NCBI GenBank assembly: GCA_016927655.1
Contig: JAFGMG010000015.1
Span: 1-37,706 of the forward strand
Source: Candidatus Dojkabacteria bacterium
Lineage (GTDB): Bacteria; Patescibacteriota; Dojkabacteria; B142; JAFGMG01
Direction of reading: 5' to 3'
DNA length: 37,706 nt
The notes below the pieces were generated by a model. The model ran no database searches and was not told the origin of the DNA. It worked only from the letters and a program-made list of their open reading frames with translations. This document shows, piece after piece, positions 1-21,924 of this stretch (position 1 is the first letter of the stretch; every line of letters starts with the position of its first letter). The translations under genes were made by a program, and so were the position numbers.

Positions 1-1173
1 ACTTAGCATGAATTTAGGGACCTTAACTGATGATCTGGGCTGTTTCCCTTTCGACTGACGGAACTTATATCCCGTAGTCTAACTCCCGATCTTGAGACTG
101 ATGGCATTCGGAGTTTGAGAGAGTATGGTACTCAATACTGAGCCCATGACTCAATCAGTGCTCTACCTCCACCAGTTAATAAATCGAGGCCAACCCTAAA
201 GCTGTTTCGGAGAGAACCAGCTATTACCGCGTCCGTTTGGCGTATCACCGCTAACCACAAATCATCCAAAACTTTTGAAACAGTTACTGGTTCGGTCCTC
301 CCCCCATATTTCTACGGGGTTCAACCTGTTCATGGTTAGATCACGCGGTTTCGGGTCTAATCTATACGACTATTATTTCGCCCGTTAAGACTCGCTTTCG
401 CTTTGGCTGCGGTGCAGAACACCTTAACCAGCCATATAGATTAACTCGCAGGCTCATTCTTCAATAGGCACGCTGTCATTCCGGCAAGCCGGAACTCCAA
501 CTGCTTGTATGTAAATGGTTTCAGATACTATTTCATTCCCCTCTCAGGGGTGCTTTTCACCTTTCCCTCTCGGTACTAGTTCACTATCGGTCACAAAAAG
601 TATTTAGCCTTTCCCAGTGGTTTGGGATGATTCCTACGGAATTTCACCTATGCCGTAGTACTCAGAAATAAACTCTAGCAAGTCCAATTGCTTTTACGTA
701 CGGGAGTATTACCCTCTATGCTCTGCCTTTCCAGGCTTGTTCCGCTAACAATAGGATTTATAACTTACTTCTCCGGTTTATAGTCCGGAAACGAGTCCAC
801 TCTACAACCCCTCAAAATAACCATCACTATAATGACGACTCAAATTCCGCACCTGCAACGCAGGTTTGGAAAAATTGTCCTATTCTTGAGGTTTGGGCTC
901 TTCCCCTTTCGCTCGCCACTACTTAGGGAATCCATATCGGTTTCTTTTCTTCTGGTTACTGAGATGTTTCACTTCACCAGTTTATCTCCACTGCAGCTAT
1001 GAATTCACTGCAGGGTTACGAATGGAGCAAGCTCCATTCGCAGGGTTTCCCCATTCGGACATCTCCGGGTAATAGCGCTTATTGGCAGCTCCCCGAAGCT
1101 TATCGCAGCCTGTCACGTCCTTCATCGACTTTTTGTGCCAAGGCATCCACCATTTACACTTAGTAGCTTAATC
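1..1173 (-). rRNA. rrl: 23S ribosomal RNA, 5' ~1.17 kb (3' part lies outside the window)
   Basis: Minus strand reads GATTAAGCTACTAAGTGTAAATGGTGGATGCCTTGGC...GATGAAGGACGTG, matching the bacterial 23S 5' end; the window start corresponds to the conserved GGGAAACAGCCCAGA...TAAGGTCCC block. Confidence 0.95.
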
Positions 1174-1272
1174 TTTGTTTTAAAACTTTCATTGAAATTC
1201 CCAACGGCGACAAAAAGACCGAACTGCTCGTTCTATTCTATTTTACCGTTGAGATACCTTGTTTTGCTATTC

Positions 1273-1286
1273 AGTTTTCAAAGAAC
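1273..1286 (-). promoter_or_regulatory. boxA-like antitermination motif in the 23S leader
   Basis: Minus strand GTTCTTTGAAAACT between the spacer tRNA region and 23S resembles bacterial boxA (TGCTCTTTgAAAA). Confidence 0.5.
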
Positions 1287-1295
1287 AACTTATTG

Positions 1296-1345
1296 TGGAG
1301 CCCCAGGAATTGAACCTGGCAAGTCCCGCCAAGCGGGAGGCCCCA
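1296..1345 (-). ncRNA. tRNA-like mini-element (acceptor stem + 6-bp hairpin + canonical T-arm; no D or anticodon arm)
   Basis: Minus strand TGGGGCC-TCCCGC-TTG-GCGGGA-CTTG-CCAGG-TTCAATT-CCTGG-GGCTCCA: 7-bp acceptor (one G.U), perfect 6-bp hairpin, perfect T-stem with TTCAATT loop. Confidence 0.7.
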
Positions 1346-1352
1346 TTTCGTA

Positions 1353-1450
1353 GGAATCTTGCTTCACTCTTCGTAATTTTGTAAACAAAACTACTTAGAA
1401 TTTCGCAAGTTCCTCCTCTTTCGATCCAACTCCCTAGGGTCGTTGTATCG
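1353..1450 (-). ncRNA. 98-nt double-hairpin tRNA-leader element, copy B
   Basis: H1 CGATACAAC-GACCCTAGGGA-GTTGGATCG; H2 outer GGAACTTGC/GCAAGATTCC, inner GTAGTTTTG-TTTA-CAAAATTAC; same length and layout as copies at 1616 and 21774. Confidence 0.7.
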
Positions 1451-1534
1451 ATTTAGAAAGAACACTGCAGATAGTGTGCGAAGAAAACATTTGAAACCCC
1501 TTGGTTTCAACGTTTTCGGAGCATGCTATCAAAG

Positions 1535-1609
1535 TGGAGCTAGAGGGATTCGAACCCTCGATCTCCTCATTGCAAATGAGGCGCATTAGACCAGCTGTGC
1601 TATAGCCCC
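1535..1609 (-). tRNA. tRNA-Ala(TGC)
   Basis: Acceptor GGGGCTA/TAGCTCC, anticodon arm CCTCA-TTTGCAA-TGAGG, T-arm GAGGG-TTCGAAT-CCCTC; no encoded CCA. Confidence 0.95.
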
Positions 1610-1615
1610 GACGTC

Positions 1616-1713
1616 GGAATTTTGCTTCGCCTTTCGTAATCTTGTAAACAAGATTACTTCAGACTTCGCAAATTCCTCCTCTTTCGATTTAACTCCCGTT
1701 GGTCGTTAAATCG
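1616..1713 (-). ncRNA. 98-nt double-hairpin tRNA-leader element, copy A
   Basis: H1 CGATTTAAC-GACCAACGGGA-GTTAAATCG; H2 outer GGAATTTGC/GCAAAATTCC, inner GTAATCTTG-TTTA-CAAGATTAC. Confidence 0.7.
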
Positions 1714-1731
1714 AAGCAAAGACTTACATAG

Positions 1732-1806
1732 TGGGCGTTCTAGGAATCGAACCTAGGACCTCAGTCTTATCAGGACTGCGCTCTAAACCAACTGAGCTAA
1801 ACGCCC
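1732..1806 (-). tRNA. tRNA-Ile(GAT)
   Basis: Acceptor GGGCGTT/AACGCCC, anticodon loop CTGATAA, T-arm CTAGG-TTCGATT-CCTAG. Confidence 0.95.
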
Positions 1807-1840
1807 CATATTTAAAACCAGCCCCGAACACCTCATTTGA

Positions 1841-1855
1841 CTTTTTTAAAGAGCA
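1841..1855 (-). promoter_or_regulatory. boxA antitermination motif in the 16S-23S spacer
   Basis: Minus strand TGCTCTTTAAAAAAG, close to consensus boxA TGCTCTTTAACA. Confidence 0.55.
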
Positions 1856-2027
1856 TGAGACTTGTGGTCTCATATAACCCTTGAGAACTTAATAGTGATA
1901 GAGACAGCTCTGCAGCAAAAGAATTTTAGAATGTAATTCCGGCCTAAACCGAAAAAACACTCAAGGTTAAAGATTAAGATCTTTAATTGTTTGTCCAGAA
2001 ACTTAATTCTGGATATTTACTCCTTAG

Positions 2028-3521
<1,494 letters not shown>

Positions 3522-3722
3522 AAATATTTCAACCATGAAGCAAGCTCCATGGATTTAAATCAAAGTTTTGATTCCGTTACTGCTTGGCATGAACTCTATC
3601 ACTATTAAATTTTCAAGGTGCCAAATTCTGCAAACAGAAAACAATAAGCTATGCACCAAAAGCCAACCAATTGAGACTTTCAGCACAAGCTTAATGCTTC
3701 TTGAGTTAGATTTTCCGCTTGT

Positions 3723-3752
3723 ATTCTAACAGAAAAGAACTTAGTTAGTAAA
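3723..3752 (-). promoter_or_regulatory. putative rRNA operon promoter
   Basis: Minus strand TTTACT-18 nt-TAGAAT upstream of the 16S leader. Confidence 0.4.
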
Positions 3753-3755
3753 GCC

Positions 3756-4091
3756 CTATTTGATCAATCCTCCTACTACTGGAACTTCCCATTTCTCACC
3801 GTTATTTGCTTTCATCAAGCCGTATACTCTGATCCCGATATCAAGTAAAGCCCAGGCTGGCCAAAGACATAGTCCAATAAAGAATGCCATTGAGATTGAG
3901 AAAATGATATGCCCGACGATTGAAACTAATGACCATGAAAGGGATTGCTTTGCATGATACTGCAAAAATTCATTTGCATCATTCATCCAGATGAAACTGG
4001 TGATTGGAGCAAAAAGCCATGCAAGCATTGCATTTGTCTTTACTTGCCCATCGGCTGTCTTTGCTGCTGGTGCTGCTGTTGTCTCTGCCAT
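3756..4091 (-). CDS. DUF4870/Tic20-like small membrane protein
   Basis: ORF 111 aa; 'NDANEFLQYHAKQSLSWSL' plus hydrophobic helices typical of DUF4870-like proteins. Confidence 0.7.
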   Translation of the reverse strand: MAETTAAPAAKTADGQVKTNAMLAWLFAPITSFIWMNDANEFLQYHAKQSLSWSLVSIVGHIIFSISMAFFIGLCLWPAWALLDIGIRVYGLMKANNGEKWEVPVVGGLIK

Positions 4092-4158
4092 AGCTAAAGG
4101 GGTACTAAAAATTAAATATAACTGAGTATACTATTTCAAAAATGAAATGGCAAACTTT

Positions 4159-6003
4159 TCAATTTACAAGTAATTTTTCAACTTCGCTCACTTTGGTCAC
4201 ATCTTCCGGATCTTTGTCTGCCCTATCCCACTCCTTCAGCCTCGGGAATCTAAGCGAGTACCCTACTCCGTCTTTGTCCTGCCCTGCTGTGTGCAGTTTA
4301 CTTTTTGAAATTTCATCAGCTTCAACTACCACCACAATTTCCGGCCGAAGAATTACATCCGGCATCAATTCTTTTTTTACTTCGGCGTTCTCAGGAATCT
4401 TTTCGATCTCCAGCCCCTTTATTCTCTCCATAATCCCCTCCCAATCTTCATCTTTGATTCCGCTTCCGACTTTCGCAATAGTCTCAAATTTCTCAGTTTT
4501 CTCATTATAAACTCCAACCAAGAATGCACCAACTCCATGCTTTGCTCTTGCTCCCCGACCGTGATAGTATCCCAAAACTACTGCATCTATCGTGTCTATC
4601 AACTTCGAATCGATATTTGCTTTAAGTTTAATCCAGTCATAATTTCTAGTACCAGGCAAGTATTTACTCTGCGGATTTTTGGCGATCAAACCTTCAAGGC
4701 CATCTTCTAGATATTTGGCAAAATATTTCTGAAGAGTCTTTAAATCCTTAAGCTCATTTGACTCAGAAAGTTTCAAAATCCTGGAGCTGGAGAAGTTCTT
4801 CTTTATAAGATCTTTCAATGCATCAAGCCTCGAAAGCAACGGCTTTTGTGAAATATCCTCTTTGCCCAAATAAAGAATATCAAAGACATAGACCTTCACA
4901 GGAACACTTTGAGATTTTTCTTTAATTCCATATTTTCTTTTCCTCTGGATTGTCTCTTGGAAAGGGATATATTTACCGGTTTCAGGATCAGTCCCAATCG
5001 CTTCAGCGTCAAGGACAAAACTACCAGGTAGTTCGTCTTCTTTTTTTTCAACTTCCGCTACTACATCCGGAAACATATCAGTAAGCGGCTCCATATTCCG
5101 GCTGAATATCCGCACAATATCACGTTTTCTTGATTCAGTTTTGCCCAGATCAAATTGCAATGACGGCGGTTTTTGCCCAATTGCCTGATTTTGATGCACT
5201 TGATGAATATCATCAAATCCAGCTCGCGAATAGTGAATCTGCAATCTCAATCCATCATATTTCGGCTGGACAATTGATTCTGGAATTCTTTCAAAAACCG
5301 CCTCAACTGATTTTTCCCGCTCAACCAGTTTCGAAGCAACAGGAGTGCCCGGTTCAACCATTATTCTTTCGAGTTTCTTAAATTTCCTTTGCAAGACAAG
5401 CTCAGCAATATCCCCAATATCGGCACGCACGCCATAAGCATAATCCAGCTGCCCTCTATAGCTCTTATCACTAAATCCGGCCCAAGACAGAGAATCAAGG
5501 ATCGTTTTATCATTCAACCCGAGCCTTAATTTCCCGACAATCATTCTTGCTACATACTTGATGCTCAACGGATCTGCCCCTTTAAAAAGCCTTTCAAACA
5601 CTTCGATTTTAGCCGTTTGGGAGCCAACCCCTTCCAGACTTGCTAGTTCAAACAGCAATTGGAAGACTTCGCCAATACTCAATTCTTCCTGTTTTTGCGG
5701 CATTTGAGATTTGATTTCCGATGCAACCAGTCCGATATCACCTTTCTTCGCCATTAGAGTCTCTATTTCCAAAATCCCCTTTCCCGACGCTTTTTCTATC
5801 GCCCGCAATAGCAATTTTGTTGAAAAATTAAACTCCAGAGGGATAAATCTGGGCGCAATTCTTCCTGTGAGCATGTACATTACGGGCTTTATCTCATCTG
5901 GTTCGAGTTTCTGCAGGAAACCGGCCAAAATCTCAGTCATCTCATTTCGAGAACTGCTCTTCTCAAGACTTTCAAGAATTGTCGCGAATTGTTTGAATTT
6001 CAT
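4159..6003 (-). CDS. ATP-dependent DNA ligase (archaeal/eukaryal type)
   Basis: Motif I 'VQPKYDGLRLQIHY', plus 'FVLDAEAIG', 'EGLIAKNPQSKYLPGTRNYDWIKLK' and 'DAVVLGYYHGRGAR'. Confidence 0.93.
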   Translation of the reverse strand: MKFKQFATILESLEKSSSRNEMTEILAGFLQKLEPDEIKPVMYMLTGRIAPRFIPLEFNFSTKLLLRAIEKASGKGILEIETLMAKKGDIGLVASEIKSQMPQKQEELSIGEVFQLLFELASLEGVGSQTAKIEVFERLFKGADPLSIKYVARMIVGKLRLGLNDKTILDSLSWAGFSDKSYRGQLDYAYGVRADIGDIAELVLQRKFKKLERIMVEPGTPVASKLVEREKSVEAVFERIPESIVQPKYDGLRLQIHYSRAGFDDIHQVHQNQAIGQKPPSLQFDLGKTESRKRDIVRIFSRNMEPLTDMFPDVVAEVEKKEDELPGSFVLDAEAIGTDPETGKYIPFQETIQRKRKYGIKEKSQSVPVKVYVFDILYLGKEDISQKPLLSRLDALKDLIKKNFSSSRILKLSESNELKDLKTLQKYFAKYLEDGLEGLIAKNPQSKYLPGTRNYDWIKLKANIDSKLIDTIDAVVLGYYHGRGARAKHGVGAFLVGVYNEKTEKFETIAKVGSGIKDEDWEGIMERIKGLEIEKIPENAEVKKELMPDVILRPEIVVVVEADEISKSKLHTAGQDKDGVGYSLRFPRLKEWDRADKDPEDVTKVSEVEKLLVN

Positions 6004-21687: not shown

Positions 21688-21692
21688 GAAAG

Positions 21693-21766
21693 TGCTCCAG
21701 GATGGAATCGAACCATCGACCCCGGCTTTATAAGAACCGTGCTCTAACCGACTGAGCTACTGGAGC
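21693..21766 (-). tRNA. tRNA-Ile(TAT)
   Basis: Acceptor GCTCCAG/CTGGAGC, D-arm GCTC/GAGC, anticodon arm CGGTT-CTTATAA-AGCCG, T-arm GATGG-TTCGATT-CCATC. Confidence 0.92.
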
Positions 21767-21773
21767 ATCGTCA

Positions 21774-21871
21774 GAGATACCCTGCAGTTTACATAATCCC
21801 GATAAATCGCGATTCTTTCAACTTCCAGGATCTCTTCCTCTTCGATTCAACTCCCAAGGGTCGTTGAATCG
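21774..21871 (-). ncRNA. 98-nt double-hairpin tRNA-leader element, copy C
   Basis: H1 CGATTCAAC-GACCCTTGGGA-GTTGAATCG; H2 outer GAGATCC/GGGTATCTC, inner AATCGCGA-TTTA-TCGGGATT. Confidence 0.7.
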
Positions 21872-21924
21872 AGACACAAACTAACAGGGCAATTTTACCA
21901 CTAAACAAGAGTTATTGAGAAGCG

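Follow-up and report, generated by a model that had tools for sequence, protein, structure and literature searches.

We found that a 50-nt tRNA-like unit in the 16S-23S spacer of a Dojkabacteria rrn operon sits behind a copy of a structured element with two hairpins, about 105 nt long, that adjoins tRNA ends and, in one family, start codons elsewhere in Patescibacteria. Judged from its sequence, this unit, referred to below as the mini-element, fits best a truncated, perhaps chimeric, tRNA relic, and it is probably neither a tRNA nor a selected pre-23S processing signal. On balance, we lean towards a combined reading, in which a tRNA relic lies next to a small, dispersing two-hairpin element that is placed by its GACG end at borders.

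The window, that is, the whole stretch of 37,706 nt that was analyzed, belongs to a genome of 0.9 Mb (G000), and its rrn operon runs on the minus strand in the order 16S, Ile-GAT, Ala-TGC, mini-element and 23S. The 16S rRNA gene occupies positions 2028-3521 and is followed by tRNA-Ile(GAU) at 1731-1806, whose own 5′ end carries no copy of the element, tRNA-Ala(UGC) at 1534-1609, the mini-element at 1296-1345, and the 5′ part of the 23S rRNA at 1-1173, the 23S beginning at 1173. The leaders of tRNA-Ala and of the mini-element are both copies of the two-hairpin element, at 1610-1714 directly adjoining the 5′ end of tRNA-Ala (114 bits with covariance model R1) and at 1347-1451 before the mini-element (103.9 bits with R1 and 85.0 bits with R3), both on the minus strand and both folding far above shuffled sequences (z = −6.05 and −5.60, respectively). 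The first-pass annotation had assigned the mini-element its own copy of the leader, and this agrees with a repeat of the tRNA-Ala leader over 103 nt with 81% identity at a spacing of 263. A long hairpin (GAAAACGTTGAAACC/GGTTTCAAATGTTTTC) was also seen at 1452-1530, in the interval that separates tRNA-Ala from the second copy of the element.

Read on the minus strand, the mini-element consists of a U at 1345 (position −1 in the tRNA register), the acceptor 5′ strand GGGGCC (1339-1344), the hairpin UCCCGC-UUG-GCGGGA (1324-1338), CUUG (1320-1323), the T-arm CCAGG-UUCAAUU-CCUGG (1303-1319), the acceptor 3′ strand GGCUCC (1297-1302) and A73 (1296). The acceptor, T-arm and single GC hairpin proposed in the first-pass annotation were all recovered as the pairings of the MFE fold, at −27.6 kcal/mol (z = −2.74, with 3 of 200 shuffles folding equally well). 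An acceptor of 7 bp had been proposed as well; pairing does occur there, but the seventh pair is U(−1):A73, leaving 6 pairs (GGGGCC/GGCUCC) and A73 in the tRNA register, so that the acceptor/T helix is slipped or falls one pair below the normal 12 bp. D and anticodon arms are missing from the mini-element, and positions 1296-1345 were not called as a tRNA by ARAGORN or by Rfam RF00005 at its gathering score. A scan of 1.59 million strand-bases of tRNA-rich loci for a 7-bp stem and a 5-bp T-arm with the T-loop consensus, outside called tRNAs, gave two matches, one of them the mini-element, against 1.0 per shuffled pass. This yield suggests that a chance appearance of the mini-element in the 860-nt spacer is improbable, though such folds are not impossible, and its position behind a tRNA leader copy within an rRNA spacer makes chance a poor explanation. 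The other match, L154:1055-1111 (minus strand, G019), is a 57-nt tRNA-like unit with a 7-bp stem and a T-arm and no normal cloverleaf, on which ARAGORN was silent.

As to its origin, the mini-element shares the end GCTCCAC with tRNA-Ala, as had been pointed out; its acceptor ends are Ala-like, and GGGGCC-type tRNA-Ala acceptors occur in several Dojkabacteria. Among 259 tRNAs, its best match was tRNA-Ser(CGA) of its own genome, over the variable arm and T-arm, followed by Ala(CGC). The resemblance of the hairpin segment to Ser(CGA) was equalled by 1 of 300 shuffles, which do not preserve palindromes, and is therefore only a lead; GC hairpins may resemble each other by chance. The T-arm core GGTTCAATTCC had no second occurrence in the genome. 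A search for relatives suited to spacer comparison yielded nothing closer than the same order, and a scan of GTDB by DNA ligase likewise gave no close relative. The earlier suggestion of a decayed duplicate fits, since the Ala leader occurs a second time directly ahead of the mini-element, and since in other Patescibacteria broken tRNAs recur behind the same leader, not far from an intact tRNA of that kind. The mini-element would have decayed after a duplication of element and tRNA together, or after a tRNA-targeting insertion. Its leader copy has an altered border, with GACG changed to TACG, UACGAAAU in place of GACGN, and three extra bases before the acceptor; this degradation looks like loosening, not tuning. 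The mini-element retains both acceptor strands, unlike most truncated tRNAs behind the element, and its intact acceptor and T-arm pairing could be due to selection.

The element itself is built of two hairpins, joined by a purine linker whose last bases are GGAG, and of GACG after the second. Hairpin 2 has symmetric internal loops of the GAA/GAA type, and hairpin 1 is topped in the Dojkabacteria copies by GACC-NNN-GGGA. G000 holds 44 tRNA matches and five copies of the element, which precede tRNA-Ala, the mini-element, tRNA-Lys(UUU), tRNA-Ile(UAU), located by a regular-expression search, and tRNA-Lys(CUU), located by covariance model. The copy before tRNA-Ile(UAU) is the third within the window (21767-21872, minus strand) and adjoins the 5′ end of this tRNA (21692-21766, minus strand). 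Covariance models were built iteratively from 7 (R1), 28 (R2) and 98 (R3) copies. Among 89 genomes of the class, the R1 search detected 8 carriers, one with a marginal match, and the R2 search detected 20 among 384 genomes sampled over the phylum, a patchy distribution. A DNA pattern, which demanded a downstream tRNA motif and is therefore uninformative on borders, matched 32 loci in 85,462 species genomes; 11 were confirmed by covariance model and belong either to named Patescibacteria groups (Peregrinibacteria, Parcubacteria, Kerfeldbacteria, Saccharimonadia, Dojkabacteria) or to MAGs with no group label. No locus assigned to another phylum was confirmed. At gathering score, Rfam models matched only rRNA, tRNA and tmRNA in window positions 1-6000 and at ten other loci, leaving the element unmatched, and a permissive Rfam search of 1280-1740 gave no further match above its gathering score. 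A limited search of an open-access collection found no paper that describes such an element, which thus appears to be undescribed within Rfam 15 and open-access papers.

The pairing of the element is supported by covariation. In the first alignment, made with plain MAFFT, 28 pairs showed changes on both sides, compared with 12.4 in shuffles. Fitting to the model, as was done for the later alignments, biases the outcome towards the structure. Of the pair cells in the alignment of 28 Dojkabacteria copies, 94.8% were paired, with 237 both-side changes against 56.6 in column shuffles and a covariation score of 0.719 against 0.192, and in 128 distinct copies from the phylum the corresponding values were 92.6%, 1482 against 444.6, and 0.825 against 0.200. 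None of 500 shuffles reached the observed score in either set, and controls slid along the larger alignment scored at most 0.142.

We found that the element has precise borders. In 105 of 146 copies, its 3′ end is no more than 8 nt away from a tRNA or tmRNA gene; a few genomes contribute many copies to these counts (32 from G170 and 17 from G100), and the copies are not independent. The 105 comprise 58 D copies, in which the element is on the tRNA strand at the tRNA 5′ end, and 47 I copies, in which it is on the opposite strand at the tRNA 3′ end; they cover 18 tRNA kinds as well as tmRNA, and two tRNAs carry D and I copies together. The distance is at most 2 nt in 101 of 144 distinct copies. 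As a control, a distance of 8 nt or less between the 5′ end of the element and a tRNA end occurs in only 2 of 146 copies. Immediately 5′ of tRNA-Arg(TCT) and tRNA-Arg(GCG) in G000 there is a GACG without hairpins, near a −10-like box, which is possibly an element remnant or chance.

The other 41 copies are of two main sorts. Thirteen copies, all from one family (G100, G120 and G137), adjoin start codons through GACG and 1-2 nt, and none of them is followed by a tRNA. According to our reading of the translations, the genes behind them encode L27, S8, S13, L20, NusA, GreA, MscL and others. Before L27, the element is found in two genera, and the third genus has a shortened hairpin with identical GGAG and GACG borders. 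The shortened form at L244 (G100:C1:718506) reads AAAAGGAG-AAACTTCAC-GAAATGTAA-GTGAAGTTT-AGACGT-ATG. Many of the rest adjoin partial or interrupted tRNAs (Leu, Ser, Gln, Phe, His, Lys, Tyr and tmRNA) that have an intact counterpart close by, and within the window this set is represented by the mini-element. A GIY-YIG-like frame is present at two such sites, L062 (tmRNA) and L117 (tRNA-His). At L062 (G025:C8, 581-1605), the tmRNA is followed by the GIY-YIG-like frame, 17 nt that nearly repeat the 3′ end of the tmRNA, and an inverted element, an order that resembles an insertion of GIY-YIG at the tmRNA 3′ end. At L117 (G402:C18, about 1606-1930), a GC hairpin and the GIY-YIG-like frame split a tRNA-His, and an intact tRNA-His lies downstream.

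The sequence of the element turns over independently of its flanks. The copies at tRNA-Trp of G005 and G010 are 99% identical, with upstream flanks of 70% identity, and the copies at tRNA-Phe of G005 and G007 are 68% identical, with upstream flanks of 83%; saturation of the flanks at the orthologous Phe copies was rejected, as upstream identity there is 83-89%. In tandem copies, the tRNA-proximal one outscores the distal one in seven of eight pairs and keeps the full outer stem, which the distal one usually lacks. One contig (L201, G170:C24, 490-750) ends in a head-to-tail array of near-identical units without the 3′ strand of the outer stem. No pair of empty and filled insertion sites was seen among the copies compared. 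We also looked for a possible mover among 18 carrier genomes. Reverse transcriptase (PF00078) is absent from 11 of them, including G000, G170, in spite of its 32 copies, and the near-complete G178, and was rejected as a general driver. Y1 transposase (PF01797) was likewise rejected, as it is not common to all carriers. Priming by tRNA-CCA is unlikely because inverted copies directly adjoin A73 where CCA is not encoded, and integron attC sites, suggested by the hairpin shape, were set aside on inspection because the R-box pattern is not conserved across copies.

We favour a dispersing element, at a confidence close to even, over its main rival, a leader that belongs to the host. The element, if mobile, would be set with its GACG end 0-2 nt from tRNA 5′ ends, from tRNA 3′ ends on the opposite strand, and from start codons, and it would act as a folded single strand, either ssDNA or RNA. 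Insertions at tRNAs may be tolerated because tRNA end-processing would strip the element from pre-tRNAs, and those before start codons because the folding of hairpin 2 would bring the built-in GGAG beside the AUG. According to the rival, the element is a cis-acting RNA of the host, a folded 5′ leader kept by selection, which sets or protects the 5′ ends of pre-tRNAs and mRNAs or aids expression. We consider this rather unlikely. The element strand does out-fold its complement, in 55 of 56 D copies, 44 of 46 I copies and 13 of 13 start-codon copies, by a mean of about 6-10 kcal/mol, and G-U pairs exceed A-C mismatches in both orientations (41:14 in D and 38:15 in I). In D copies, the folded strand is the strand of the tRNA transcript, as a processing leader demands, and −10-like boxes lie upstream of 32 of 56, compared with 26.3 in shuffled sequences (10 of 200 shuffles were as high); this modest excess suggests that some D copies are probably transcribed. 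However, the 47 inverted copies among the 105 that adjoin tRNAs do not follow this rule: in 44 of 46 I copies, the strand that folds better runs antisense to the tRNA, and −10-like boxes show no excess upstream of them (14 of 45 against 14.0). A general role of the element as part of the tRNA transcript is therefore unlikely, and what remains is that it acts as ssDNA or as a separate RNA. Most tRNAs, moreover, have no element, as the five copies in G000 illustrate. Retention for function is suggested by L27, where the element or its shortened form occurs in all three genomes of the family, each of its own genus, with the same borders and with the spacing SD, hairpin, GACGN and ATG; the retention of the full outer stem in tRNA-proximal copies also accords with a host leader, and the near-perfect pairing in most tRNA-adjoining copies could reflect selection on each copy in place. 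The structure and covariation of the element, its precise borders, both orientations, the folded strand and the recurrence by broken tRNAs are observations; mobility and the tolerance of insertions through processing are inferred. The tandem copies, the turnover independent of flanks and the arrangement at L27 point two ways, to dispersal and to retention.

Several known systems resemble the element in part. REP hairpins are preceded by a GTAG tetranucleotide (PMC2817692), and the element, which also consists of dispersed imperfect hairpins that act as single strands, has GGAG ahead of hairpin 2. An element of the REP/REPIN-RAYT or IS200/IS605 kind, mobilised in trans by a Y1 transposase, would accord with this and with the Y1 genes in 11 of the 18 carriers. 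We regard it as quite improbable, since no Y1 gene was found in G000, G005, G007, G010, G178 (near-complete), G402 and G105, and since a unit of about 105 nt with two unlike hairpins, GAA/GAA loops, few copies and strict ends at tRNA borders or start codons is unlike the short, scattered REPs, in which a short hairpin directly follows the tetranucleotide. tRNA-targeting integrative elements and homing (GIY-YIG) genes share the preference for tRNA borders and the partial tRNA copies beside intact ones; the two-hairpin element differs in that it is geneless and lies outside the tRNA, at its exact end. The eukaryotic retroelements Ty3 and Dictyostelium TRE integrate at set distances upstream of tRNA genes, and are similarly position-specific next to many different tRNA genes, whereas the element lies 0-2 nt from either tRNA end and most carriers searched have no reverse transcriptase.

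The first-pass annotation had proposed that the mini-element is kept as a signal whose cleavage by RNase P and/or RNase Z frees pre-23S, in the manner of t-elements. Since a paired acceptor with a T-arm can in principle serve as a minimal substrate of RNase P, the mini-element may be processed, and both arms lie paired immediately ahead of the 23S leader. In plant mitochondria, t-elements, which are tRNA-homologous and tRNA-shaped, have no role in translation, and adjoin rRNA or mRNA ends, mark RNA ends in such a way (PMC11658184). The mini-element is likewise tRNA-shaped beside an rRNA end, but it has no D and anticodon arms and is preceded by a dispersed structured element not described for t-elements. 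We judge this proposal improbable, and it finds no support in our analysis: the leader border at the mini-element is degraded, its helix is slipped from, or short of, the 12-bp register, other truncated tRNAs behind the element mostly retain one tRNA side only, and the leader also occurs outside rRNA spacers, adjoining many unrelated tRNAs and start codons and, inverted, the 3′ ends of tRNAs. The inverted and start-codon copies led us to drop the view that the repeat of about 98 nt is literally an RNase P/Z leader.

Our results show that a tRNA-like fragment in an rRNA spacer is not necessarily a signal for processing. The element fits no class tested here, with its covarying hairpins, near single-nucleotide placement and both orientations. 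We tentatively entertain the idea that it is an RNA-end or insertion module whose 3′ GACG border is placed at, or creates, the ends of functional RNAs (tRNA 5′ ends, tRNA 3′ ends from the opposite strand, and start codons), either as a border-specific mobile single-strand element that has no known transposase or reverse transcriptase or as a cleavage signal that makes tRNA 5′ ends and leaderless mRNAs. For Patescibacteria, this raises the question of whether DNA is inserted exactly at functional RNA borders, or whether these borders are defined by the folded strand.
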